Shown one piece after another: positions 1,028 to 36,724 of a DNA stretch of 37,562 nt (position 1 is the first letter of the stretch; each line of letters opens with the position of its first letter). The notes under the pieces were generated by a model, which was given only the letters and a program-made list of their open reading frames with translations, was not told where the DNA came from and did no database searches. The position numbers and the translations under genes were made by a program. The stretch comes from Bacteroidaceae bacterium (GTDB lineage Bacteria; Bacteroidota; Bacteroidia; Bacteroidales; Bacteroidaceae): contig JAGCGS010000059.1 in assembly GCA_017649485.1 (NCBI GenBank), forward strand, positions 1 through 37,562, given 5' to 3'.

Positions 1028-2872
1028 TTAATCAACCTCCCATATAATCTTTACCAACTGGTATAACAATCTAGAGCGTTCTTCAAGAGCCTCTTTATCG
1101 AAAACATTATAAGCTCTAAAAGATACGCCATATTCCTTTTTGAACTTGTCATTAAAATTCGTAAAACTAAGGTTAGAATGATAGAAATCTTCACATAAAG
1201 AATGACCCCACATAAGTCCATTGCTATATGTTTTCAATTTATCTTCATATTCCTCATTTCCTGAACTAATGTTATCAGCACCCCTTAACAGCAACAGACC
1301 ACCAAGTTGATTTCTTTTCTCTTCAAATTCTTCATCACTCTGGAAATAAGAACGGTTAGTTTCATTGTGGGAAAGGATATGTTCTATATGATATCCTGTA
1401 ATTCTACCAGTTTTTCTAGAAATTTCCATCACATTATCCTGCATAGAAATAGATGTCTCATTTGAAATATATTTTTCTATTCGTGCCAAGAAATAACGTA
1501 GCATTCTTGTATTCATATTGGTATAGTTCTTTTTAGCAAAACTATTGTAATCCAATAAATTCACATCGCCCTCTATCCCTCTCTTTTGTCGGATAGTTTC
1601 TCTTAATTTAGCATCAAAGATAGTACGATAAGATTCTAATTCAACATCTTTCAGTTGCTGAGTGATTCTATAGCACTTGTCTTGAAATTCATTACTATCA
1701 TAAACGCCATTGAGATTCAAAAGCATCCAAAATCTATCCATTTCTACTGCTAACGTATGAATCTTTTCATCTTCCTTCGGATCATCGATAGAGCATGCAG
1801 CCAGTATACTTTGGTATTGCATAGACAAATCGTTTATCTCATTATCATATTTTAGATACTCGTCTTTGTTACTACGAATCTTAGCATACAAAGAAGTATA
1901 ATAGGTTAATTCATTATCTATAAAATTCTTGATATTTTTAATATGATTGGTATCTGTCCTTCTAAAAGATAATTGTTGAGCAATATCGTTTACATCAAAA
2001 ATATAGCGATGATAAAGATTACTCAAAGATGCCTCCAGCTTCGTGTTTGACGACGTCACAAATCGTGACTTCAGATAGTCACCAAAAAATGCATCTTGCA
2101 TATCTTGCACTTGTAGCATCGCTTTGTCCCATTTCTCGGAAAATGACTGAGTATCATTCTTGCTAAGCAGACCTACCATTTTACCTTTCAAAATCTCGAA
2201 TGGTTTCAACGCTTCTCCTCTATCGTTGATTACTTCAAACACCATTGGCGTATCATCTTTCTCCACCGATAGTTCTACCATAACCAGTTTTCTTAGGAAA
2301 TACATACAGAAAGCTCTCAGTTTATTATCATCCATTTGTTTCTCATCGATAAAGTGGCTAATGTCCTTAAATCGAGCTATCAGTGTTTCCTCTGTTTTGT
2401 TCTTAAAAGTATCCTCATAATTCTTATTATCAAGAATACTCTCCATAACATTTTTTCGCTTCTCGTTATCTATACAAAAGACATTTCCCTTGAACATATC
2501 TTTAGTAAAGATGCAGTCTTTAAGCAGATCCCTTAACGTATCATCAGTAATTAGGTGATAAAGCTTTGTTGCTATTAAAGTGAGAGTTGTCAAACGTTGT
2601 TGACCATCAACTATATAAACTTTTGAATTAACTTTGTTGGTAATAAACACATTCATGTAATACCAATTATATTGTTCCAAAACTTCTTCTGTCAAATCTT
2701 CATCTTTGTGGTCTTCATATGAGATTTCAAAAGCATAAAAGATATCACGAAGCAAGACCTCAACTGTATTCTTATTCCAGATGTACTCACGCTGATAAAA
2801 ATCAACATAATAAGTTTTCTTACTAAGGCAAGACTGTATAGATTGCCTTTCTGGTATTATCTCCTGTGTCAT
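1028..2872 (-). CDS. DUF262 and DUF1524 protein, GmrSD-like type IV nuclease
   Basis: 614 residues from the ATG at 2872; this start leaves a 16-base gap after the upstream stop, whereas a longer reading would overlap it. The N-terminal DUF262 domain shows YQREYIWNKNTVEVLLRDI and the ParB-like signature YIVDGQQRLTTLTLI, then NDRGEALKPFEILKG. The C-terminus is a DUF1524 HNH-like nuclease: GYHIEHILSHNETN, then NQLGGLLLLRGADN and a downstream N/K/Y cluster (NEEYEDKLKTY). In GmrSD the first domain binds and hydrolyses nucleotides and the second cuts DNA carrying sugar-modified cytosines; single-chain fusions are common and act in phage defence. The catalytic histidines appear intact, so it is probably functional. 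It is the last gene of an operon with DUF3791 and DUF3990. Confidence 0.85.
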   Translation of the reverse strand: MTQEIIPERQSIQSCLSKKTYYVDFYQREYIWNKNTVEVLLRDIFYAFEISYEDHKDEDLTEEVLEQYNWYYMNVFITNKVNSKVYIVDGQQRLTTLTLIATKLYHLITDDTLRDLLKDCIFTKDMFKGNVFCIDNEKRKNVMESILDNKNYEDTFKNKTEETLIARFKDISHFIDEKQMDDNKLRAFCMYFLRKLVMVELSVEKDDTPMVFEVINDRGEALKPFEILKGKMVGLLSKNDTQSFSEKWDKAMLQVQDMQDAFFGDYLKSRFVTSSNTKLEASLSNLYHRYIFDVNDIAQQLSFRRTDTNHIKNIKNFIDNELTYYTSLYAKIRSNKDEYLKYDNEINDLSMQYQSILAACSIDDPKEDEKIHTLAVEMDRFWMLLNLNGVYDSNEFQDKCYRITQQLKDVELESYRTIFDAKLRETIRQKRGIEGDVNLLDYNSFAKKNYTNMNTRMLRYFLARIEKYISNETSISMQDNVMEISRKTGRITGYHIEHILSHNETNRSYFQSDEEFEEKRNQLGGLLLLRGADNISSGNEEYEDKLKTYSNGLMWGHSLCEDFYHSNLSFTNFNDKFKKEYGVSFRAYNVFDKEALEERSRLLYQLVKIIWEVD

Positions 2873-2888
2873 AATAGTATATATTGTA

Positions 2889-3191
2889 TTAACTTGCCAT
2901 TTTTGAGAAACAAAAAGAGTTCTCATTTACAATAAACTCAGCCCATTCTTCATCATAACAATCAAACTGCTTAACTTTCAAAAGGTCTGAGTGTAGGAGC
3001 TGCTCGTCAAATACATAAGTTGTGACATTTGGCATGCCAAATGAAAGTCTGAAGGTTGTCAGTTCTGCCATACGAAGAGCTTGCTGAGGATCAGCACTGA
3101 GATAGAAGCCTCTGCCAAAGTCTTTTCCTTTCCTGCCTTTGCTGAGGTCAATTGTTTCTATGGCCATATTCGATCCATGATAAAGCTTCAT
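2889..3191 (-). CDS. DUF3990 family protein, C-terminally short
   Basis: 100 residues from ATG 3191, overlapping the stop of the upstream DUF3791 gene in an ATGA, so translation is probably coupled. MKLYHGSNMAIETIDLSKGR followed by KDFGRGFYLSADPQQALRMA is the DUF3990 signature, a fold thought to resemble ADP-ribosyltransferases. The family usually continues about 50-60 residues past the EWAEFIVNEN-type motif, but here the chain ends 11 residues later and the GmrSD-like gene begins. This suggests a 3'-truncated gene, perhaps cut by the arrival of its neighbour. DUF3791/DUF3990 pairs are frequent in Bacteroidales and look like toxin-antitoxin units, but that role is inferred. Confidence 0.75.
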   Translation of the reverse strand: MKLYHGSNMAIETIDLSKGRKGKDFGRGFYLSADPQQALRMAELTTFRLSFGMPNVTTYVFDEQLLHSDLLKVKQFDCYDEEWAEFIVNENSFCFSKMAS

Positions 3192-3916: not shown

Positions 3917-4264
3917 AAAAGAATTTTCGCAAAACATGCCGACACTTCACTTTTGCTCTCTAACGTAAAGACATACAAATAGATAAGTTAGTGAAGTGTT
4001 TCGCAAACACTTCACTAACACTTCACTTTTGAAACCCTTGAAATTGGTGGTAATAATTGACGTTATGTCATTATAAAAGGCAATATAAATAGCAAAAAGA
4101 AATCAAAACACAGAGTATTCGTGCTAAACAGTCATAATTTAACACTTCCTGAAGAGTGAAGTGTTGGTGAAGTGTTTGCAAAACACTTCACTCTCGAACC
4201 ACTTGATTAGCAACGGCTTATATGGCAAAAGTGAAGTATTGGCATGTTTTTGCAAAATTCTTTT
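3917..4264. repeat. Symmetric palindrome array, candidate replication origin
   Basis: The block is bounded by 40-bp inverted repeats (3917-3956 and 4225-4264) that match at 35 of 40 positions by eye. Inside are two large palindromes: 15-bp perfect arms 3987-4001/4005-4019 around CGC, and 11-bp arms 4167-4177/4181-4191 around GCA. Both are built on GTGAAGTGTTT/AAACACTTCAC. Further single copies of the AACACTTC/GAAGTGTT word occur at 4018-4027 and 4141-4165. The centre (about 4040-4135) is AT-rich. The VapE-type helicase gene starts 208 bases further on. Paired iteron clusters around an AT-rich centre recall the origins of phage satellites, but origin function is an inference. Confidence 0.65.
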
Positions 4265-4353
4265 CAGTTAAATATGATGAGGGGCTTTTTTAACCGTTGA
4301 AAAATAATTTGAAAATAAATCAGGTACAATGGAAAAGGTATTGCATTTTTCAC

Positions 4354-4361
4354 TACCTTTG
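4354..4361 (+). promoter_or_regulatory. Probable -7 box (TACCTTTG) of the vapE gene
   Basis: TACCTTTG fits the Bacteroidota -7 consensus. The -33 element is poor. It lies 110 bases upstream of the helicase ATG, giving an untranslated leader of roughly 100 bases. Confidence 0.5.
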
Positions 4362-4471
4362 TAACCGCATAGCTCAAAAGGAGGCTTGTGACATCGACTG
4401 CTACTCTTTCTCCCATCCCCTTGCTTTTCTGAAATGCAAACAATTACTCATTAACCCCTTTTTACACCTTT

Positions 4472-5659
4472 ATGGTAAAAACTCAATCAAAGGTGCAGAA
4501 TGCAGTGTATCTGATAGAAAGCTTTCTGCACGAGAATTATGAGTTCCGTCACAATGTGCTCAGTGGCAAGACGGAATTCAGGAAGAAACACGAAGACGAC
4601 AAAACGGAAGAATGGCGTGTCGTGACACCCGAAGTGGTGAACTCCATTGTGCGTAAAGCCAAGATGGAGAATTTGTGCAAGAACTCCCCACGCGCTGACA
4701 TTGAGGAGTTTATCAATTCTGATGCGGTGACCGATTTCGATCCTATCCGTAGTTATCTGGAGCAATTGCCTGCATGGGATGACAAAAACCATGTGGCAGA
4801 ACTGTTTAACCGTATTCCCGGGCTTACCAGTGAGCAACTTGCATGGTATAGTATCTGGCTCCGCTCGGCTGTGGCTCATTGGCTGAGTCTTGACAAGGTT
4901 CATGGCAATGAGGTAACCCCTGTGCTGATAGGTAGGCAAGGTTGTGGCAAGACCACCTTTGCTTTCCGTTTACTCCCTCCCGAACTGAGGATGTATTTCC
5001 TGGATCACATCAACTTCGCCAATAAGTTTGATATGGAGATGGCGCTGACTCACAATCTCTTGGTGAACATTGATGAGTTTGCCAACATGAAGGAGAGTCA
5101 GCAAGGCAAACTGAAATACACCCTCTCAAAAGCAAAGGTGAACGGGCGTCCCATCTTTGGCAAAGCCCAAGCCGACCGCAGGCGATATGCCTCATTCCTG
5201 GCTACCACCAATGATGAGCATCCCCTGTGCGACCCAACGGGAAGTCGCAGGTTCCTTTGCCTCAAGGTGGCAGACAAGAAGCTGATTGACAATGAGTCAC
5301 CCATCAACTACGAGCAGCTTTTCGCACAAGTGATGTATGAGCTCAAGGAGATGCAAGCACCTTATTGGTTTAACAAAGAGGAGGAGGAGCGCATCCAGCA
5401 ATTGAATCAGCCTTTTATGAAAGAGGAAAGCTTGGAGACCATGATTGGCTATTTCTATCGTGTCCCAGGAGAGCATGAAACGGGTAAGTGGCTGATGCTG
5501 AATCAGGTGATTGAGAACATGCAAAGGACTTATCCTTTGCTGAAGAACAACCAATCCACCCGAATCAAGATGGGACAGGCTCTAAGACAAATGGGGTGTG
5601 TGCCACAGGAAACGAATCGTGGCAGGAGGTATCAGCTGATTGAGAATGATGCTGCCTGA
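4472..5659 (+). CDS. VapE/VirE-type P-loop helicase with DUF3874-like C-terminus
   Basis: 395 residues. After an N-terminal helical region the virulence-associated E (VapE) domain shows LPAWDDKNHV, a Walker A GRQGCGKTTFAFRLLP near residue 153, Walker B LLVNIDEFANM near 195, and sensor-like FLATTNDEHPLCDPTGSRRF near 245. The last 90 residues fit DUF3874. VapE proteins are superfamily-3-like helicases of phage satellites, integrative elements and prophages, where they start element replication. No primase domain is present in this chain and no integrase lies nearby. The gene stands alone between a symmetric palindrome block and an intrinsic terminator, consistent with a replication module left from a mobile element. 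In-frame ATG 4472 is chosen because the leader before it is non-coding. Confidence 0.8.
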   Translation: MVKTQSKVQNAVYLIESFLHENYEFRHNVLSGKTEFRKKHEDDKTEEWRVVTPEVVNSIVRKAKMENLCKNSPRADIEEFINSDAVTDFDPIRSYLEQLPAWDDKNHVAELFNRIPGLTSEQLAWYSIWLRSAVAHWLSLDKVHGNEVTPVLIGRQGCGKTTFAFRLLPPELRMYFLDHINFANKFDMEMALTHNLLVNIDEFANMKESQQGKLKYTLSKAKVNGRPIFGKAQADRRRYASFLATTNDEHPLCDPTGSRRFLCLKVADKKLIDNESPINYEQLFAQVMYELKEMQAPYWFNKEEEERIQQLNQPFMKEESLETMIGYFYRVPGEHETGKWLMLNQVIENMQRTYPLLKNNQSTRIKMGQALRQMGCVPQETNRGRRYQLIENDAA

Positions 5660-25054: not shown

Positions 25055-25082
25055 AGTGAGTAAGTGAGTAAGTGAGTAAGCT
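25055..25082 (-). repeat. 8-bp tandem repeats (AGTGAGTA)
   Basis: Just over three copies of AGTGAGTA lie between the primase and M15 genes. The reverse complement (TACTCACT) is the same repeat found at 30001 and 37443. Confidence 0.85.
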
Positions 25083-27648
25083 AAGGTAACTCAGCCACCC
25101 TTTTCTTATATATACCATACTTAACCTTCTCTACCACACCATCGGTGATAAAACGGTTGATGGCACGGGAAGCAGCTTGCTGTGAGCACCCGAAGCATTC
25201 TTCAAACTGCTGGGTCTTAAATTCATCAGGCAGCTTGCTGAAGCAGGTCTCATAGCGTGTGGTTCGATGCCTCACCACAAATTCCTTGTTCTGGTCTTCG
25301 TAGTAATTGACTGCCATCTCACCAAAGAAGAACCTCTGACATTGGTACTGTATCTCCATCACCAGGCGGCACAGGCGTTTGTCGATGTCATCCATCGGCA
25401 GGGTCTTGTGTTCCCGCCACTCGTCCCAATGGCGCATCAGGATGAACGGCAGACTGATACCTATTCCATAGTAGGGGATGCGTTTCAGTAGAGAGCGGTC
25501 GGCTCTGTCCTGATTGAACTGAGCTATCTCCAAACGGTTCGACTGCCAGTCGTAGGTCTCATCGTTCAGCGGTTCGATGGGGATTTCACCCTCTACCTTA
25601 TCCAGTCGGAAAGCCCACTCCCTCAACTTGTCATTGGCACTGAGATCCACCTGCTGGTGTCGCGCCGCATTACCAATGTCGGGCAACGGAATCACAGCCA
25701 GTCGGGTACTCATACCCGTACCGAAATTCCGCTGATTCACCCTGCGGTGCAGGGCATAGGGCGTGCCTGTGTAGATAAAGTTCCAGAACACGTTGAACAT
25801 GCCTGTCACACTCTCCTGATTGGCATACATCTGTCCGTCCTGCTCATTGTGGAACGCTTTCAACTCCAGCACCTCACGGTCTTTCCATTCGCCACCCTTG
25901 TTATTCTTGGTGACATTATCCAACTCAGAGTCGAAGCTGAACATGTGCAGGTTCAGCTCCCTGCCTTGCACCGTTTCCTTGGCAGCCAGCATGTGACGGA
26001 TGAACTCACCCGTAGCCGTGCGGGCAGGATGTACACGGATGCCCACTACGGGCTTTTTCAAGGCATCGCCCTTCTGAGCCTTGGTTGAGGTTGTACGTTC
26101 CGTGCGTCCCTCCTTGTAGCGATTCACCGCATCAATCAAGCCTTGATCCGACTGGATGACAGGGTCGAGAATCTTGAAGTAGAACTTCTCAATCACATTC
26201 TTTCCCGAGCCTGGGTCACCGATGATGAAGATACTGTAATTCAATCGTCTGATAATCTCAGGCTCATACCAGAAATGATACCACGCACGAGTCATCAGGG
26301 TGCCGAACATGGCACCGCTGGAGAACAGCACTGCAGGTTTTTTCTGGGGATGCAGGTTGATAAACAGCTCCCTCATACAGGGGAAGTAAGCCGAAAGCTC
26401 CTCCAGGTTCTCAGCCCAGGTGTCTAATGGCAACTGACTATAGATGCTCTCATCCAACTGGCAATTAGCCTTCTGCGGCTGACCATTCTCAACTGCGCCT
26501 GTTTTCTGCAAAGCCTCCTGCAGTTTCTCGGGTTTCCTCTCGTAGTAACGCCAACCCATTACCGAGCTAACCGTACCTTCCACATCTTCGCCCTCAGCAG
26601 ATAAGTCCTGTACCCAGGGCAGTTGCATCACCACCTGTGTAATCACCTTGGCATTCTTGCCTATCAGGTAGCGAAGGTGCGAAGCCAGCTCCACCAGCGT
26701 ATCATGCCGCTTGTTTTGCAGATCCTTGCCATCCAGCCATGCCTCGATGATTTTCAAGTAGGGCACACCATTATAGTTCAGAAGCGCCACTTGCTCAGCA
26801 TCCACCTGCTGGCTTTGCCCATCAGCCTGTGCAGCAGCACCACTGGATTGAGAAGCAGGCCGAGTAGGAGCACTATGACCAGCCCAGTACTCAGCATTAT
26901 ATCTCTTGCCAAATTCTTCATTCTCATAATTAATTAGTTTTTCTTCGTCAATAAAAATCACATCTTCGCGGGTGGTCATGAAAGCCCCCCTGCTCGCGTC
27001 CTTACAAGCCTCGTCGGGGTTCAGACCCAACTTAGCTGAGAAATCTTTCTGATTATCGATGAGGTTACCCACATTGACATCAGCCATGAACACCACTTTC
27101 AAGCCATGTCCAGAAGGTGTTACAAACACAAACAGTATTCTTGCCTTGTCCTCGTCAGACAGCTTGGCATAGGCTGCAGCCCACACTTCACGCGGGTTAC
27201 TCTCCACATGGTCGAAGTCGATGACACACAAGCCATTCAGCTTGCAATACTTCTGATTACGCCATGTGCCTAACCGTTGTGACTGACTGCTTGCCGACTC
27301 AGCGTAAGTGGCGATGAAGATAACGAAAGGCAACGATTTCTTCAGGTGGTCGCAATAGGCCTGCAACTTCTTCCCCAGGGGCAATCCCTTGAAAATGTCG
27401 CCTTTCGCCATGCCATTCTTCAACTTCTTCCGATTTCTCTCCTGAACCTGGCAGAAGTCTTGGTAGCCAGGGTCGTTAGCCCATTGTTCCTGTAGTGCGA
27501 CATCCGCTTGGATGGAGGGCATTGCCTCCCTCCATCTGCGGTGTTCGTTGGTTAAACGGCGCGTCTTCTCACAGTCTAAGAACTGACGGAGCAGTTGCCG
27601 TGTCACTGTTTCTGTTGGCTTAGTAAAGCACTGTTGAAAGCAAAACAT
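25081..27648 (-). CDS. VirE-type primase (BT4734-like) fused to DUF3987-like helicase
   Basis: 855 residues. The VirE N-terminal part ends in TWRNQKYCKLNGLCVIDFDH, whose D-x-D is typical of archaeo-eukaryotic primases; VFVTPSGHGLKVVFMADV supplies the sGhG loop and a later DASRGAFMTTREDVIFID matches the BT4734-like domain. From about residue 430 a DUF3987/VirE-like P-loop domain follows, with Walker A FIIGDPGSGKNVIEKFY near 480 and FSFDSELDNVTKNNKGGEW downstream. The C-terminus has a winged-helix-like segment (CFGCSQQAASRAINRFITDG). The combination suggests priming and unwinding for an integrated element. The start overlaps the upstream gene by 46 bases; ATG 27522 is an alternative, but upstream residues fit the family. 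Confidence 0.85.
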   Translation of the reverse strand: MFCFQQCFTKPTETVTRQLLRQFLDCEKTRRLTNEHRRWREAMPSIQADVALQEQWANDPGYQDFCQVQERNRKKLKNGMAKGDIFKGLPLGKKLQAYCDHLKKSLPFVIFIATYAESASSQSQRLGTWRNQKYCKLNGLCVIDFDHVESNPREVWAAAYAKLSDEDKARILFVFVTPSGHGLKVVFMADVNVGNLIDNQKDFSAKLGLNPDEACKDASRGAFMTTREDVIFIDEEKLINYENEEFGKRYNAEYWAGHSAPTRPASQSSGAAAQADGQSQQVDAEQVALLNYNGVPYLKIIEAWLDGKDLQNKRHDTLVELASHLRYLIGKNAKVITQVVMQLPWVQDLSAEGEDVEGTVSSVMGWRYYERKPEKLQEALQKTGAVENGQPQKANCQLDESIYSQLPLDTWAENLEELSAYFPCMRELFINLHPQKKPAVLFSSGAMFGTLMTRAWYHFWYEPEIIRRLNYSIFIIGDPGSGKNVIEKFYFKILDPVIQSDQGLIDAVNRYKEGRTERTTSTKAQKGDALKKPVVGIRVHPARTATGEFIRHMLAAKETVQGRELNLHMFSFDSELDNVTKNNKGGEWKDREVLELKAFHNEQDGQMYANQESVTGMFNVFWNFIYTGTPYALHRRVNQRNFGTGMSTRLAVIPLPDIGNAARHQQVDLSANDKLREWAFRLDKVEGEIPIEPLNDETYDWQSNRLEIAQFNQDRADRSLLKRIPYYGIGISLPFILMRHWDEWREHKTLPMDDIDKRLCRLVMEIQYQCQRFFFGEMAVNYYEDQNKEFVVRHRTTRYETCFSKLPDEFKTQQFEECFGCSQQAASRAINRFITDGVVEKVKYGIYKKRVAELP

Positions 27649-28070
27649 TTGTCGATTTCACTGGTTAGAGTGTACAGCTCCCTCCTTGTTTCTATCATTC
27701 CCCTTGCCTCGATGGTAAACCAGGCAGAGATCCTGCCCAGCTGAGCCTCAAAGCTCACCTTCACATGCTCCTTGTTCAGCAGGAACTCTCGCTCAGGCAG
27801 CTGTGGCTCCTGGATTTGAATGTCCTTTGTCAGCTTAGCCAGCTCCTGCTGGAAGAAAGCAGCCTTGTCTGCCACCTCCTCGGGGCATTTCAGTTCCACA
27901 CAAGTCAGTGGGTTCTTACCCGTGGTTTCATAGCGTTTGCTACGTCCCACCTTCTTTACATACTTCTGCGAAGGAGCACCCTCTGCCTGAGGGGTCACTT
28001 CAATGGAGTTATCGTCGAACACCCTGGTATTCGACTTGAAACTCTTCACACATTTCTTTTTCTCGCTCAT
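27603..28070 (-). CDS. Conserved-looking hypothetical protein of the primase cluster
   Basis: 155 residues, not recognised. The N-terminal 60 residues are basic and polar (SEKKKCVKSFKSNTRVFDDN, YVKKVGRSKRYETTGKNP). A helical middle (FFQQELAKLTKDIQIQEPQL) and a beta-like C-terminal part (HVKVSFEAQLGRISAWFTIE) follow. The 3' end overlaps the primase start by 46 bases and codon use is like its neighbours, so it is probably real. It may be a DNA-binding or accessory replication factor; no motif proves this. Confidence 0.65.
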   Translation of the reverse strand: MSEKKKCVKSFKSNTRVFDDNSIEVTPQAEGAPSQKYVKKVGRSKRYETTGKNPLTCVELKCPEEVADKAAFFQQELAKLTKDIQIQEPQLPEREFLLNKEHVKVSFEAQLGRISAWFTIEARGMIETRRELYTLTSEIDKCFAFNSALLSQQKQ

Positions 28071-29898: not shown

Positions 29899-30141
29899 AA
29901 GTTACAAACTTGCTGGGGATGCAAAAATGGCGGCAGACAGTATGGAGTTTAAGGATCGAGGCTCGTTCGGACGGACTTAAATAAATCGCTCACACTCGGC
30001 ACTTACTCACTTACTCACTCGTTCGGACGGATTTGTAATCCGTCCGCATCGAATATAAGGATTTTTAATCCGAAAAAATAATTTATCGCATTGCAAATGC
30101 TCATATTCAATACGTTCGGATTGCAAATCCGAACGAACAGG
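29899..30141. repeat. REP-like palindromes and 8-bp repeats between primase and R-M clusters
   Basis: A small palindrome CAAGTTACAAACTTG lies at 29898-29912. About 2.5 copies of ACTTACTC occupy 30001-30019. CGGACGGATT-tgt-AATCCGTCCG (30024-30046) and CGTTCGGATT-gca-AATCCGAACG (30113-30135) are perfect palindromes, and the segment 30018-30139 opens with CGTTCGGACGG and closes with CCGAACGAACAGG. A shorter version of this unit occurs at 37227-37290. No gene is seen in 29852-30276. Confidence 0.75.
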
Positions 30142-30295: not shown

Positions 30296-31519
30296 TTATT
30301 TCATTGAAGTACTCAGTTGTACTTTATACTTCACTGGTTTCATCTTGATACCCATACCATCATCGAAAGGATTCTTGATTACCCATATCTTTGGGTGTGG
30401 TGTCAGGATTTCATAGACCACATAGATGTAATAGTCATTGCCATACTTCTTCGCAGTCTCATATTCATTCTCCGTGTAATAAAAGTCCATGTCGCCCACT
30501 TTTCTTTGGGTGGCTTTCACTTCTATATACCTTGGGGTTTTGTCTTTGTTCACAGACTGAATGTCAAAGCCAAAAGCATCGCTTTCGCGAGATACCCATT
30601 TGATAAGTTTCTTTGCTTTCGACTCTGAAATTGAGAGTTCTTTCATTAGTCTGCTCACTTCTGCCTGTATAACCACATATTCGCCTCTATCTCCAAGCTT
30701 CTTATACTTCTTCGCTTCCTTTTCATAATCTGGAGAAGGCTTGCCGGAGTGAGATTGGGTGTGCGGAGTGGACGTTCCATTTTTCAACTGCAAATCAACA
30801 AAGGAGAAAGATTGGAGTGTAGGGAATTCTATTTCTTCTTCGTCAGATACAACTGCCACGTCATCGCTTTTCAGTGGAGCTTTAGGATAATGAGACCACA
30901 AGAATACAGCAAACATATTGACGCTCCACTTTCGCATGTCTTTGTCTTTGTTTTTGAATTCAAGTAGTGCATCACGTTTGTAGAGCACGTCTGACTTCAT
31001 CAAATCAGCAGTATCAAGGTCAAGGGCTTTTAAATAATAGTCCAGATGGTCTTTTGAGAAGATGTTCAGATAATCTTCAGGATAGTAGGTGGACAGTATT
31101 TTGCCCTTCACCAAAGCATTTAGAGGGTTACTGATGATGTCGTCATAATCGTGGCGTTTACCTGCTTCCAACAACTCAATAATGGATGTTTTAATTGTCT
31201 GGAATGCATCTTTGTAGTTATCGCCAAAACGAGGGTCGTATTTGTAATCACCAATTTGAGGTGAGTACCAAATACCAAATTTAGAACTTGGCTGGCCTGT
31301 AATGCGCCCCAGTTTATCTAGTTTGCGTTCCAATTCATAGCAAAAACTTGTTTTACTTTGCCTTCCAATGACATAATCGTCTATCTTCATTGACGCAATT
31401 TTGGCTGGTGTGAACTTCTTGACAAAATCCTCTCTTGCCTTGTAGAGTGGTTTATATTCCTTCTCCAGAGCATGAAGTCTGAAAGTCTGCTTCGCTTCCT
31501 GTAATTCCTGATAGTTCAT
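30296..31519 (-). CDS. DUF3883 nuclease-like protein with restriction-type N-domain
   Basis: 407 residues. The N-terminal 200 residues (FTPAKIASMKIDDYVIGRQS, CYELERKLDKLGRITGQPSS, KFGIWYSP, ILSTYYPEDYLNIFSKDHLD) resemble the N-terminal domain found before McrB-type and other restriction ATPases and probably binds DNA. After a polar linker, GDRGEYVVIQAEVSRL (near 277) and TPRYIEVKATQRKVGDMDFY (near 328) form the DUF3883 domain; the E-V-K triad is a PD-(D/E)XK-type catalytic signature. It is the last gene of the R-M operon, starting 46 bases after the Mrr gene. A second DUF3883 protein lies three genes upstream and shares the RYIEVKAT core. Likely a restriction subunit. Confidence 0.8.
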   Translation of the reverse strand: MNYQELQEAKQTFRLHALEKEYKPLYKAREDFVKKFTPAKIASMKIDDYVIGRQSKTSFCYELERKLDKLGRITGQPSSKFGIWYSPQIGDYKYDPRFGDNYKDAFQTIKTSIIELLEAGKRHDYDDIISNPLNALVKGKILSTYYPEDYLNIFSKDHLDYYLKALDLDTADLMKSDVLYKRDALLEFKNKDKDMRKWSVNMFAVFLWSHYPKAPLKSDDVAVVSDEEEIEFPTLQSFSFVDLQLKNGTSTPHTQSHSGKPSPDYEKEAKKYKKLGDRGEYVVIQAEVSRLMKELSISESKAKKLIKWVSRESDAFGFDIQSVNKDKTPRYIEVKATQRKVGDMDFYYTENEYETAKKYGNDYYIYVVYEILTPHPKIWVIKNPFDDGMGIKMKPVKYKVQLSTSMK

Positions 31520-31565
31520 AGGGCGTTAGTTCTTTTGTTTTCAATTTTGATGAGAGGATTAGCGC

Positions 31566-32453
31566 CTATTCTTCAAAGAAATCCTTGTCAATTCGTTTGA
31601 CTTCATAAATATATTCAGTCGTTACACCAACATTATATTGAATCATCAAATTGGTTAACTGCTTTCCATCTATCTTGGCAATTTTCTTTGATGATTTATA
31701 ATCCAATGCTTCCTTGGTGAAACTAGAGGTGGTGATGAAAACCCCCTTATTGACACCAGCACCATCTAAAGCACCGACAAACCCCTGCATCAATGGCCTT
31801 CCGACCTTGTTATCTGGTTTATATCTTTTAGCCTGGATATGAATAATATCTAATCCAAGTTTATCTTCATTGATGATACCATCTATACCTTCATCACCTG
31901 TTCTTTGGGTTATAACTCCCTTACCATAGCCCATCTTCTCAAGCAACTTTAATACAAGGTTTTCAAAGAATGTCGGTGATTGTTCAAGAATAGTAGCAAG
32001 CAATTCTTCTGCCAAATCATTGTTGATGGCATTATATGCTTTTTCCAAAGATTCTGTTGGGGTTAATTCCTTTTCTGGTTCAGGTGTGCCTTCAATACAA
32101 GGGGGAGTATCCATTCCTGTACTCGTTGCATAAGCTGCAAATTCGGGATATTGCATCAAATCGCTTTTGTATAATGAAGTGTGACTAGCAAGGTAGTCCT
32201 TACCTCTTTGAGTTATAGCATAAGTTCCCCTTTGGGGAATCTCTATGAACAATGCCCTTCTAAAGTACTGCCTACACCATCCAATTCTATCAGAAAGTTG
32301 GTTGGTTTTACCACCTTTAGTCATAGTGGCACAATCATCTGCTGTTAGGTTGAAGTGATCAACCATCTTAGTTCTCATCTCCTTTGTTGTAAGGTTGCCA
32401 TCTTTCAAGAATGAAAGAAATGGATATAAGAATTCTTCAAATTGTGGTATCAT
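31566..32453 (-). CDS. Mrr-family restriction endonuclease
   Basis: 295 residues. The N-terminal winged-helix Mrr_N domain (EEFLYPFLSFLKDGNLTTKE, then WCRQYFRRALFIEIPQRGTY and ITQRGKDYL) is followed by the Mrr_cat domain: FFENLVLKLLEKMGYGKGVI, GDEGIDGIINED near 186 and IIHIQAKRYK near 205, which give the D...QxK active site, then GVFITTSSFTKEALDY. Mrr cuts methylated DNA as a type IV enzyme, but homologues also serve as the nuclease of type II systems paired with a methyltransferase. It starts 4 bases after the upstream methyltransferase stop, so it is probably that enzyme's partner. All active-site residues appear present. Confidence 0.9.
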   Translation of the reverse strand: MIPQFEEFLYPFLSFLKDGNLTTKEMRTKMVDHFNLTADDCATMTKGGKTNQLSDRIGWCRQYFRRALFIEIPQRGTYAITQRGKDYLASHTSLYKSDLMQYPEFAAYATSTGMDTPPCIEGTPEPEKELTPTESLEKAYNAINNDLAEELLATILEQSPTFFENLVLKLLEKMGYGKGVITQRTGDEGIDGIINEDKLGLDIIHIQAKRYKPDNKVGRPLMQGFVGALDGAGVNKGVFITTSSFTKEALDYKSSKKIAKIDGKQLTNLMIQYNVGVTTEYIYEVKRIDKDFFEE

Positions 32454-32456
32454 ATC

Positions 32457-34010
32457 TTAATATTTTTCTGTTAACAATTCTCCCATTGTAGTATCTGTAA
32501 ACGTATGCCATATTTCCAATGAGATTGGCTTGTAATCGTCAAACAACTGACACAAATACTCAATCTCAAATACAAGTCGAAAATCTTTGGGGTCTTCGTC
32601 TGGTTGACCTTCTTTTCGTGTTCCGACTCTGGCTATTTTGATGAAATACAAGTCTTTTATCCCCTTACCTTTAAAATAAGGCATAAAATAATATAACTTG
32701 TTAAGTGCAACCGTAGCAGGGAATTTCTTTCCAGTATAGTATATCTTCGCAGTTTTGTGAAGATATTGTTCGACATTGTCTTTCTTTACAAGAGAAATGA
32801 GTACGTTTCTTTCTCTGTTTAGAGTCTTCAGCTTCGGAGGCATCTTTCCATATTTAAGGCAAAGATCTTCGCGAACAACATTGTTCACGATTTCTCCATC
32901 CTCATACATATCAAAGAGCTCAAGAAAGTTTAATTGTTTATATATTGGTGCTGGTTTCTTCTCTTCGACAGGGCAGAAAGCTCCAGCAGGATGACTCTTC
33001 ATATATGCATTGATTTCATCTTCATTAAGTTGTCCATGGTCAACAATTGCCTTCTCTAATTGTTTGGCAACATACCACATGAAGACAGGTGGAACAGCAT
33101 TTCCTATCTGTTTATATGATTTTGGCTCAGAATCATTCAGCATAAAGTTATCTGGAAATGATTGGATTCGTGCAGCCTCTCTGGGAGTGAATCTTCTATA
33201 TAGTTCAGTCGCTGGGTCTACCAACAAAAGCGGATCACGAGAATTGATACTCGTTTTAGCAAGATGAGCTGTAACCGTAAGACATGGTTTGGACAAATCT
33301 TGCCATAATCCTCGCTTCATGTTTTTTTTGGCATTCTTCATGCCCTCAACTGCTTTTTGCGAAAAATAATACTTTTTCTCTTCAATGTCAAGTTTGTCAA
33401 TAACAGCACCTAATGGAGTTGCAGTTTCTTCTGTGCATATAGGTGTTGGGAATTCATAATTGAAAACCAAATCATTTCGGATGCCAATGATTATAACTCG
33501 TTCTCGTCGTTGAGGAACGCCAAACTCAACAGCTTTAAGTAGTCTAAACTGCACTCTGTAGCCACATTGACAAAATTCGCCAATTATTTTATTCACAATG
33601 CTTCCACCCTTAAGGGTCATAAGACCCTTCACATTTTCGCAAATGAAGTACTTCGGCTGCTTTGTTTGCAGAAATCTTACTATCTGCTTGTAGAGGTTTG
33701 CACGAGCATCATTGGTGTCTTTAGTTGGATTAACTGTGCTAAACGATTGGCAAGGGAATCCGCCAATCATTACATCCACATCTGGGGTCGCATTAAAATC
33801 AACCTCAGTTACGTCAGCACATACTGCCTTATGCTTGAAGTTCTTGTTGTATGTCTCTACAGCCCAGCGATCGAAATCTGCTGCATATACTATTTCAAAA
33901 GGTAGTTCATCATACACTTTTCCCAAGTACTGAAAGCCACCAACCATGCCGAGGTCAGAGCCACCACAGCCACAAAACAAAGAAGCTACTTTTAATTTAT
34001 TACTGGGCAT
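32457..34010 (-). CDS. C5 cytosine-specific DNA methyltransferase with C-terminal extension
   Basis: 517 residues. Motif I VASLFCGCGGSDLGM, motif IV GGFPCQSFSTVNPT with catalytic Cys87, motif VI FICENVKGLM, motif VIII QRRERVIIIG, a short target-recognition region (KPCLTVTAHLAKTSINSRDP), and motifs IX-X (RRFTPREAARIQSFPDNF, IGNAVPP) are all present up to about residue 320. The last 190 residues are an extra domain containing KFPATVALNKLYYFMPYFKG and GIKDLYFIKIARVGTRKEG, which could be a PUA/EVE-like fold. It methylates cytosine at C5 in a sequence not predictable here. Its 5' end overlaps the stop of the upstream DUF3883 gene by 11 bases. Confidence 0.9.
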   Translation of the reverse strand: MPSNKLKVASLFCGCGGSDLGMVGGFQYLGKVYDELPFEIVYAADFDRWAVETYNKNFKHKAVCADVTEVDFNATPDVDVMIGGFPCQSFSTVNPTKDTNDARANLYKQIVRFLQTKQPKYFICENVKGLMTLKGGSIVNKIIGEFCQCGYRVQFRLLKAVEFGVPQRRERVIIIGIRNDLVFNYEFPTPICTEETATPLGAVIDKLDIEEKKYYFSQKAVEGMKNAKKNMKRGLWQDLSKPCLTVTAHLAKTSINSRDPLLLVDPATELYRRFTPREAARIQSFPDNFMLNDSEPKSYKQIGNAVPPVFMWYVAKQLEKAIVDHGQLNEDEINAYMKSHPAGAFCPVEEKKPAPIYKQLNFLELFDMYEDGEIVNNVVREDLCLKYGKMPPKLKTLNRERNVLISLVKKDNVEQYLHKTAKIYYTGKKFPATVALNKLYYFMPYFKGKGIKDLYFIKIARVGTRKEGQPDEDPKDFRLVFEIEYLCQLFDDYKPISLEIWHTFTDTTMGELLTEKY

Positions 34011-35430
34011 ATCTTTTTTCTATTACTGATGCATCAAAATTCATCTGATAGATTGTTGGATAAACCTCTATCTCTCCATTCTCTGCTTTTTTAAATGGAT
34101 TCTGTATTCGTATGATGAAAGTTTTTGTCTTGGTGAAATAAACTCTGTAAATGTTGTAATAATCACCATATTGTTCGGCTGCTACCCATTCTTTTGCTGT
34201 GATGTTTAGTGAATCCATCCATGAGGGACTATCAAAAGAGGGTTCAGTAACTCGTTTTGTAGCCTTCACTTCTATATAACGCGCAAATTCCGGACGTGAA
34301 GGATTCTCGTCTGCTTCAATAGAGGAAATATCATACCCAAGCCCTTTAGTTTTACCAAGTAGTAAGACTTTATTGACAAGCCTTTCTCGGTAATTGCGTA
34401 CTCGTTCTTGTTCTAAACGGAAGACCAGGGCTTCTCCTTCGTCCCCCAAATCTACAGTGGATTTAGTGGCTCCAGAATGAGCTTTTTGTTCATCGCGACC
34501 AAGTATAACGACATTACCACGAAACTTTGTATGAACGTTAATTAGGTCTTGATTAAACTGCCCATATACTTTTTTCCACTCTTCCAAATAAATCGCTTTT
34601 TCTGCCGTTGAGCCAATTTCATACTTGTAAGCATCGAAGATAAAATCTTCTTTGTGTTTGAGGAAGCAAGCGATGGCATTTGTTTCTTCCTTGTTGAGCC
34701 AAATATAAGTTGCGTCAGTTTCAATAATGTTAGCAAGTTCAAGTAAGTTGAATTGCTCTTTAATATGTTGCCAATCGCGCGAACCTGACAATTTTTCCCT
34801 TTTGACTTTATTCTTACGGTCAGACATAATCTGGTCATAAACTATACTGCAAGGAACATTCCCTTGCAAAACATCCAGATTGTTCAAAACATAATATCCT
34901 ACCTCTTGCTTTGTAAGAATCTCTTTCTCTGGTTGACTTTGTGCATAATACAAGAGGTCAACTACATAACAAAATGGTTTCAGATGAATTTTGTTTTTTA
35001 TGTCTTCTTCAATAAACTGAAACCACTTTGCTCCATTGGGGAATTGGAAGTTCAAACAAAGGTTCTTGAAGAAAGTTGGATAATCATCATTTTCTATTAG
35101 ATACTTACATGATTCAGACTCGTTAATGTAAGTTCTATCTGTCTCAAAATCGTAGTATGGATAATATAATCCTAGTAAGGTACCAGCGACTTCTGTAAGA
35201 TGATTCTGGACGGTTTTCTTGTTACTATCAGAAAGTTGATCATATGCTTCTGTCCCAAAAAGAGCTTTGGAAAGTGTTTTGAAACAAGAAGTCTTAAACT
35301 GATCTTCTTCACAAGGACAAAATTTGTGAACCATATTTGCATACAGTGGAAGCAAATCTTCCATATCTGTTTGGCTCTTACCACGAATAATGGTACAGCG
35401 ATACTGATTTGTAGGATTATACATACCCAT
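34000..35430 (-). CDS. DUF3883 domain protein, probable restriction nuclease
   Basis: 476 residues. The first 300 residues are unassigned and largely helical (CTIIRGKSQTDMEDLLPLYA, HKFCPCEEDQFKTSCFKTLS, a winged-helix-like KEILTKQEVGYYVLNNLDVL). The C-terminal DUF3883 region begins STVDLGDEGEALVFRLEQ near 325, with ARYIEVKATKRVTEPSFDSP near 385 as the predicted catalytic strand and QYGDYYNIYRVYF after it. Located between two methyltransferases and overlapping the second by 11 bases, it is most simply the nuclease partner of the first. ATG 35430 lies one base past the upstream stop; ATG 35424 is an alternative. Confidence 0.8.
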   Translation of the reverse strand: MGMYNPTNQYRCTIIRGKSQTDMEDLLPLYANMVHKFCPCEEDQFKTSCFKTLSKALFGTEAYDQLSDSNKKTVQNHLTEVAGTLLGLYYPYYDFETDRTYINESESCKYLIENDDYPTFFKNLCLNFQFPNGAKWFQFIEEDIKNKIHLKPFCYVVDLLYYAQSQPEKEILTKQEVGYYVLNNLDVLQGNVPCSIVYDQIMSDRKNKVKREKLSGSRDWQHIKEQFNLLELANIIETDATYIWLNKEETNAIACFLKHKEDFIFDAYKYEIGSTAEKAIYLEEWKKVYGQFNQDLINVHTKFRGNVVILGRDEQKAHSGATKSTVDLGDEGEALVFRLEQERVRNYRERLVNKVLLLGKTKGLGYDISSIEADENPSRPEFARYIEVKATKRVTEPSFDSPSWMDSLNITAKEWVAAEQYGDYYNIYRVYFTKTKTFIIRIQNPFKKAENGEIEVYPTIYQMNFDASVIEKRYAQ

Positions 35431-35431
35431 A

Positions 35432-36472
35432 TTATTTTAGTTGTTTCTTAATTTCATTAGCAATCACTTCTGCCATCAGCGGTGGAACGGCATTGCCTAT
35501 CTGTTTCAGTTTACTGGTCTTGTTGCCAATAAACACAAATGAATCAGGGAAAGACTGAAATCTTGCGCTTTCACGTGCTGATGGGACTCTATTATATTCA
35601 TAATGGAAATGATGAAAATGCCCCGTATCTATAGTAATACTTGGGCGCTTACTATTTAGTCGCGTCCATGCGATATGCACTTTTCTTGTGTTTTGTAATT
35701 CTACAGGTAAGTCTTTATAGTTTCCTCCATCGGGAACCATTGCAATGATTTCCTTTGTCCTGTCGTTATGAATGGTTATTTCGTGATTATAAAGTTTTTC
35801 ACACCCACGTCTCATAAGCCTCTGATAATCGGTAAGTGGTGGCGAAGGATAATTTCCCCCATCTTCTATGCCTTCTTCTGGTAAATCCGAAATAGCCTCT
35901 TTAGATGTAACAGGATGATTTACTGTTGGTTGTGGAAATGCAAATTCTTTTCCTTCTAACATTCCAACAAATATAGCTCTTCTTCTATTCTGAGGGACGC
36001 CATAATCTGCAGCAAGCAGAACCTTATAAGTTACCTTGTATCCAAGTTCAGAAAAATCCTTTATAATAGCTTCCCTCACTGCACCGTCGCCTATTGACAA
36101 TATGTTTGGCACATTTTCCAAAACAAAGGCTTTCGGTTTAAAAAATGCAACCATGCGAACAAAACTTTTATAAAGATTGTTTCTGTCATCATCAACAATA
36201 CGTTTCCCTGCAATAGAAAAACCTTGACAAGGAGGTCCACCAATGATAACATCTACCTTTTCGTAATTAATCGCTTTATTCACTTCTTCCACGGGCAGAG
36301 TAGCCAAATCTGCACAAAGGGTGTTGTCATTTTTATGATTACGCCGATATGTTTTTAAAGCATCTTCCCACATGTCAATACCAAGCAGAACATTATATCC
36401 TGCATTTTCAAAGCCAAGGGAAAGTCCTCCGCAGCCACAAAATAAATCTATGATATTCAATTTTCTCCCCAT
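35432..36472 (-). CDS. C5 cytosine-specific DNA methyltransferase
   Basis: 346 residues, a standard-length enzyme. Motif I NIIDLFCGCGGLSLGFENAG, motif IV IIGGPPCQGFSIAGKR with catalytic Cys82, motif VI FVLENVPN, motif VIII YGVPQNRRRAIFVGM, and the TRD between about 225 and 290 including RPSITIDTGHFHHFHY. Motif IX SARESARFQSFPDSF and motif X KQIGNAVPPLMA close it. Its TRD differs entirely from that of the other methyltransferase, so the two recognise different sequences or different strands of one asymmetric site. It follows the XRE regulator by 10 bases. Confidence 0.93.
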   Translation of the reverse strand: MGRKLNIIDLFCGCGGLSLGFENAGYNVLLGIDMWEDALKTYRRNHKNDNTLCADLATLPVEEVNKAINYEKVDVIIGGPPCQGFSIAGKRIVDDDRNNLYKSFVRMVAFFKPKAFVLENVPNILSIGDGAVREAIIKDFSELGYKVTYKVLLAADYGVPQNRRRAIFVGMLEGKEFAFPQPTVNHPVTSKEAISDLPEEGIEDGGNYPSPPLTDYQRLMRRGCEKLYNHEITIHNDRTKEIIAMVPDGGNYKDLPVELQNTRKVHIAWTRLNSKRPSITIDTGHFHHFHYEYNRVPSARESARFQSFPDSFVFIGNKTSKLKQIGNAVPPLMAEVIANEIKKQLK

Positions 36473-36482
36473 TTAAATACCA

Positions 36483-36689
36483 TTACAGATTCTCTGTAGA
36501 ATTAAGTAAGTCCTTTACGTCAACTTTTAATGTTCTCGCAATCTGGTCGAGGGTGTTCAAATCTGGTTGAACAACATTGTTGCACCATTTGCTAACAGTA
36601 CAAGCAGACTTGCCTACTTGTCCTGCTAACCACTTGCTGGTTTTCTCTTGCTCTGCAAGAACTGCTTTTATACGATTTAACTTTGCCAT
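36483..36689 (-). CDS. Small XRE-family regulator of the R-M operon
   Basis: 68 residues from ATG 36689. A helix-turn-helix of the XRE/Cro type is clear: KTSKWLAGQVGKSACTVSKW then CNNVVQPDLNTLDQIARTLK and VDVKDLLN. Its position as first gene before a methyltransferase is that of a controller (C) protein, which times methyltransferase and nuclease expression after entry into a new host. No convincing palindromic C-box was found in the 50 bases upstream. Confidence 0.88.
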   Translation of the reverse strand: MAKLNRIKAVLAEQEKTSKWLAGQVGKSACTVSKWCNNVVQPDLNTLDQIARTLKVDVKDLLNSTENL

Positions 36690-36716
36690 GATAGTATATA
36701 AAGATAAAGTTTGGTG

Positions 36717-36724
36717 CAAAGTTA
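36717..36724 (-). promoter_or_regulatory. Probable -7 box of the R-M operon
   Basis: TAACTTTG on the minus strand lies 27 bases before the XRE ATG. The -33 element is poor, which would suit a promoter needing activation by the XRE protein. Confidence 0.5.

Follow-up and report, generated by a model that had tools for sequence, protein, structure and literature searches.

A BpuJI-type restriction-modification unit, probably with Mrr and PD-T4-1-like nucleases as further layers, in a Bacteroidaceae gene row

A stretch of 37,562 nucleotides from a Bacteroidaceae bacterium (GenBank assembly GCA_017649485.1, contig JAGCGS010000059.1, positions 1 to 37,562; hereafter the window) carries on its minus strand a row of six open frames, spaced in order by 10, 1, -11 (an overlap), 3 and 46 bases. 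The row probably represents one BpuJI-type restriction-modification (R-M) unit, made up of two C5-cytosine DNA methyltransferases (M1 and M2) on either side of a restriction endonuclease (R) and headed by a small XRE-type gene, together with an Mrr-family nuclease and a homologue of PD-T4-1 that are likely to be separate layers against phage DNA which escapes cutting by R. The original prediction of six genes on one strand, with gaps of at most 46 bases and one 11-base overlap, was confirmed by the frames, the spacings and the Pfam domains (Table 1). An apparent puzzle becomes a clear case of a known type IIS unit with varied defence genes settling beside the core; the core is of a known kind, and what is added are the recruited nucleases and an unannotated tail on M2.

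The identity of R is apparent along its whole length. Residues 4-285 match positions 1-277 of the 278 in the BpuJI_N profile, a search against the PDB retrieved the BpuJI recognition domain (5hlt, 2vla) with 184 bits (E 4e-53), and PADLOC gave a match to REase_II (333.9 bits). The C-terminus is a PD-(D/E)XK nuclease domain of the NOV_C family, which is the domain that the original prediction named DUF3883, with GYDI at residue 365 and IEVKAT at residue 386. The latter motif also lies at residue 332 of the PD-T4-1 homologue, so that the core said to be shared by the two DUF3883 proteins is indeed present in both; the label given to the first of them can be replaced by that of a full-length known relative, BpuJI. 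In BpuJI, alanine mutants of N67 and Q208 are described as losing DNA binding (PMC9240713). The equivalent residues of the window protein, N76 and Q221, do not vary in any of 30 aligned rows, which comprise BpuJI, the window R and 28 relatives of more than 400 amino acids (aa); the shorter proteins of loci L005 and L032 were excluded, as was the duplicate L003. Because of this invariance the specificity of R is probably that of BpuJI, namely CCCGT. R thus resembles the Bacillus pumilus enzyme (PDB 2vla, 5hlt) in having the entire BpuJI_N domain, both binding residues and the C-terminal nuclease domain, whereas the row differs in adding Mrr, the PD-T4-1 homologue and the M2 tail.

The conservation of M1-R-M2 was assessed in other BpuJI-family loci, 28 of which came from a contig scan and four more, beside the window, from a search of 295 genomes of the order. 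Thirty R loci were counted after L003 (contained in L024) and L033 (a PD-T4-1 locus with a nuclease-domain match only) had been dropped; the loci are partly dependent, L015 and L016 being 98% identical over the core. A tblastn search with the six window proteins found a C5 methyltransferase on either side of R, in the window's order, in 25 of the 30, and M1 lay upstream of R in 25 loci and also in L032. Two loci, L011 and L032, end at a contig edge and each retains its sole visible partner, both M1 and R being incomplete in L032. In L024 (475-4584) and L027 (9995-14216) R is followed by two N4/N6-type methyltransferases, with no C5 pair, and at L005 R is shortened and no C5 match was obtained. 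This recurrence of the triad is more than chance. The C5 catalytic motifs of M1 and M2 are intact, those of M1 comprising I, IV (PCQ), VI (ENV), VIII and X. In one relative, L022, M1 is broken into two frames (4163-5272, plus strand) and R and M2 are still open. Since the triad travels together in 25 of 30 loci, the comparison supports M1-R-M2 as a single BpuJI-family unit for an asymmetric site. Such a site requires two methyltransferases, and two are also kept in L024 and L027. R would bind the asymmetric site, probably CCCGT, and cut unmethylated DNA nearby, and M1 and M2 would each guard one strand of the site by 5-methylcytosine (5mC).

It had been suggested that two methyltransferase-nuclease pairs are interleaved here, possibly as two stacked type II systems, and a row with two methyltransferases and more than one nuclease invites such a view. 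M1 would then be paired with R, and M2 with either Mrr or the second DUF3883 protein. However, in L011 and the 25 full triads it is R that M2 follows, not Mrr, no recurrent pairing of M2 with Mrr or with the second DUF3883 protein was seen, and the best PADLOC match of the Mrr protein is a type IV model (mREase_IV, 233.7 bits), making this arrangement barely credible.

Table 1. Features of the gene row, with positions in the window, and M2-type tails at other loci
Feature	Position	Strand	Details
Candidate operon promoter	36717..36724	-	TAACTTTG; resembles Bacteroidetes -7 element; just upstream of ATG 36689 of XRE gene
XRE-type small helix-turn-helix (HTH) regulator gene	36483..36689	-	68 aa from ATG 36689; Pfam HTH_26 38.1 bits, also HTH_3
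M1, C5-cytosine DNA methyltransferase	35432..36472	-	346 aa; Pfam DNA_methylase 256.8 bits
R, BpuJI-family restriction endonuclease	34000..35430	-	476 aa; Pfam BpuJI_N 175.6 + NOV_C 43.9 bits
M2, C5-cytosine DNA methyltransferase with C-terminal extension	32457..34010	-	517 aa; Pfam DNA_methylase 247.8 bits
M2 tail domain	32460..32936	-	M2 residues 359-517, modelled core from ~401; predicted PUA-superfamily (EVE/YTH/ASCH-like)
Mrr-family nuclease	31566..32453	-	295 aa; Pfam Mrr_N 80.5 + Mrr_cat 109.9 bits
PD-T4-1 homologue (second DUF3883 protein)	30296..31519	-	407 aa; C-terminal NOV_C nuclease, Pfam 62.9 bits
L066 tail			On Eco57I-type enzyme
L067 tail			On C5 enzyme, adjoins EcoO109I-type nuclease
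L068, L069 tails			On C5 enzymes, adjoin MutH-domain nucleases
L070 tail			On McrC-like (DUF2357 + PDDEXK_7) protein, MrcB_N-AAA gene nearby

The two remaining nucleases have relatives of a different kind. The Mrr protein combines a winged-helix Mrr_N domain with an Mrr_cat domain bearing a QAK (QxK) motif at residue 207, an anatomy that it shares with EcoKMrr as described in PMC12707154, the difference being that in the window it shares a row with two C5 methyltransferases. The second DUF3883 protein matches the PD-T4-1 profile over its whole length (225.1 bits, residues 19-404, profile positions 23-379 of 383) and its C-terminal motif reads GFDI...IEVKAT. PD-T4-1 comes from an Escherichia coli pangenome screen (PMC9519451), and the window gene closes a row with R-M genes. 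According to the account of that screen T4 and T7 withstand most R-M systems, and five single-protein, DNase-only systems protected against T4 and T7; all but one of these are without a methylase, and their sensing of phage is called unclear.

Around the 30 R loci, a homologue of Mrr adjoins the core in one (L010, on the upstream side, 55.6% identity) and PD-T4-1 in none (tblastn), figures that are lower bounds because flanks of 2 kb or more to either side of the core are available at only 19 of the loci. With the same proviso, none of the 30 shares the six-gene order, in keeping with the earlier statement that this order is unusual. Counting the window's own, 23 of 393 genomes of the order carry homologues of Mrr (E<=1e-30), and at the 22 other Mrr loci there was no match to R, M1, M2, XRE or PD-T4-1 within about 1.5 kb on each side (less in L042, L043 and L052). 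PD-T4-1 homologues (E<=1e-25) occurred in three of 395 genomes of the class, again including the window's own, and at the other two and at L033 none of the five remaining window proteins was matched alongside. By these comparisons Mrr and the PD-T4-1 homologue appear to be additions to the core from other nuclease families.

An asymmetric-site system with a heteromeric nuclease had also been envisaged, and the asymmetric-site part of that idea holds for M1-R-M2. Its other part, a complex of R, Mrr and the PD-T4-1 homologue served by both methyltransferases, could appeal to the NOV_C domain common to R and the PD-T4-1 homologue and to the presence of all of them in one row, but 29 of the 30 other R loci are without Mrr and all 30 without PD-T4-1 within the DNA examined, so that R seems not to need either. 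Because R occurs without these two proteins, and both of them occur without R, the heteromeric nuclease is unsupported and must be considered very improbable. A type II system reinforced by Mrr, the last of the earlier suggestions, fits the gene anatomy. In such a division of labour Mrr would cleave DNA bearing foreign methylation and spare the host's own M1/M2 methylation, and the PD-T4-1 homologue would target T-even-like phages. The row would in this respect constitute a strict compatibility test, as Mrr must coexist with two writers of 5mC. The placing of modification-blocked beside modification-dependent restriction recalls the type IV genes, e.g. McrBC and GmrSD, of the enteric immigration control region as presented in PMC12707154, from which the window differs in having one tight gene row with a type IIS core.

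The six genes are likely to be co-transcribed as one operon, to judge from their spacing and common strand. No terminator-like sites were found on the minus strand between the six genes, those listed falling in R, in M1 or outside the row; because promoter-like sites were found within the row by the same scan, co-transcription can only be inferred. The element upstream of the XRE gene resembles the Bacteroidetes -7 consensus and is a possible promoter of the row. The XRE gene itself was correctly recognised in the original prediction, but its start is probably ATG 36689, which is favoured over the longer frame from TTG 36719. Among the 30 loci XRE homologues lie ahead of M1 only at L012 and L019, which bears on the question of C-protein-type control. 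Directly behind the row (30114-30134, minus strand) lies a palindrome, GTTCGGATTTGCAATCCGAAC, with 17 exact copies and many near-copies in the genome, often closely paired: a repetitive extragenic palindrome (REP)-like repeat.

The most serious alternative is that this is a defence hotspot, where Mrr and the PD-T4-1 gene arrived passively downstream of the R-M unit and are functionally unlinked to it. Neither was seen beside other window genes at the Mrr and PD-T4-1 loci elsewhere, the neighbours of the core change from locus to locus, and the window also carries a GmrSD gene and a VapE-like gene. Yet both genes lie on the same strand as the core with gaps of 3 and 46 bases, and in L010 an Mrr directly adjoins this core from the opposite side, which gives two layouts in which the core and an Mrr occur together; passive stacking is accordingly judged unlikely, if well short of negligible. 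A core unit with Mrr and PD-T4-1 as further layers is the reading preferred here, and several points weigh against it. The six-gene order has been seen once, so that Mrr and the PD-T4-1 homologue may be passengers, and 11 of the 30 loci extend less than 2 kb beyond the core in one or both directions. E. coli Mrr is described as responding to N6-methyladenine (6mA) and 5mC in different contexts (PMC12707154); the window Mrr, with two C5 methyltransferases next to it, must therefore have another specificity or stay silent. The window shows no avoidance of the putative site (CCCGT 10 seen against 9.8 expected, ACGGG 11 against 11.7), which is a weak test. Finally, co-transcription is deduced from spacing and strand, and the row may have internal promoters.

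Different genes occupy the surroundings of the core in other genomes. Vsr was found near it in L004, L013, L019, L030 and, at a distance of 3.2 kb, L020. AbiH occurs in L010 and L020, whereas L015 has a metallophosphatase-nSTAND protein, L007 a HATPase and an additional C5 methyltransferase, and L002 a DUF4917 protein. This variety suggests one type IIS unit with a changing set of defence genes settling beside it from genome to genome. In L007 (6112-8881) the additional C5 methyltransferase is paired with the HATPase protein, which has 547 aa; the same pair is present in L067 (6375-9109), an otherwise different locus, and in both it lies near a tail-bearing methyltransferase.

The tail of M2 has a wider importance than the gene row itself. 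M2 is some 190 residues longer than most of its relatives, and a search with its residues 325-517 matched 3807 proteins at E<=1e-5. According to precomputed Pfam assignments, the best 120 of these comprise 59 C5 (PF00145), 13 N4/N6 (PF01555) and 47 Eco57I-type (PF07669 and/or PF22837) enzymes, many of the 47 being near-copies of a single 704-aa protein, and one protein with no domain. In 115 of the 120 no more than 15 residues separate the end of the match from the C-terminus, and the tail is conserved at the protein level across enzyme classes. It is present in six of 295 whole genomes of the order, the window's own counted, and, besides the window, on six of 26 M2 proteins of BpuJI cores (L007, L008, L010, L012, L019 and L020; the M2 of L025 is incomplete). 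The M2 of L017 (7725-9227, plus strand) has instead a different C-terminal extension of about 150 residues with no Pfam match. The conserved, unannotated tail occurs on thousands of proteins, and nearly all of the 120 listed are DNA methyltransferases belonging to three families, which suggests that the recognition sequence is not all that steers or regulates some bacterial R-M methyltransferases.

Four tails gave no Pfam family at E<=10, the tail had no PHROG at E<=1 and no NCBIfam match, and a tail profile searched against the PDB found no PUA-type chain among five chains at E<=10. Modelling tentatively predicts a PUA-superfamily (EVE/YTH/ASCH-like) fold, and the tail may accordingly be a reader of modified bases. 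Comparable fusions have been described, namely DCD-methyltransferases and the EVE-HNH and EVE-McrB readers (PMC7641849; VcaM4I, 6yex), in which, as here, a predicted PUA-superfamily domain is joined to a methyltransferase or, as in L070, to an McrC-like protein. The M2-type tail differs from the fusions presented there in lacking a Pfam match and in that a single conserved domain is carried by C5, N4/N6 and Eco57I-type enzymes whose restriction partners are unrelated. A number of other accounts of the tail were considered and rejected. It is unlikely to read its own enzyme's product, because the C5, N4/N6 and Eco57I-type enzymes that carry it make different marks at different sites. Recent spread by DNA recombination is not indicated, nonsynonymous divergence (dN) being 0.26-0.52 with synonymous sites saturated in 21 pairs and synonymous divergence (dS) 2.0-4.7 in three, figures that come from the 24 pairs listed out of 55, L070 being left out. 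Nor is there a fixed operon partner, the neighbours being variously BpuJI-, EcoO109I- or MutH-domain nucleases, an Eco57I-domain protein or an MrcB_N-AAA protein.

Ahead of the tail, at M2 residues 359-363, lies a QLxLF-like pentamer, QLNFL in the window and QLDLF in L019; the tailless M2 of L006 ends in QLDLF, and that of L017 has QLTLF ahead of its other extension. Strict QLxLF was found in five of the 277 open reading frames of at least 200 aa in the loci, four of the five being methyltransferases, and a looser form in none of 28 M1 C-termini and seven of 27 M2 C-termini; it is absent from 64 of 209 tail proteins among the matches listed. The pentamer resembles a sliding-clamp motif, and a link to the clamp may serve as a lead. 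It is conceivable, though doubtful, that the tail is an undescribed modified-base reader which Bacteroidales attach to methyltransferases of any class and to McrC-like nucleases, and which would direct the enzyme to a mark or phage base other than its own product. The QLxLF-like stretch (QLDLF, QLTLF, QLNFL) would in that case link the enzyme to the replication clamp, and newly made DNA would be protected ahead of any encounter with R, Mrr and the PD-T4-1 homologue. If true, this would be a bacterial reader-writer module with a logic comparable to that of DNMT1 with UHRF1.

Elsewhere in the window, the GmrSD-type modification-dependent restriction gene lies at 1028-2926 (minus strand). A BT4734-like_N protein and a small partner at 25081-28070 (minus strand) have counterparts in L009 (2320-5102) with 59% and 58% identity, and in both the window and L009 the pair is situated within 4 kb of the R-M unit.
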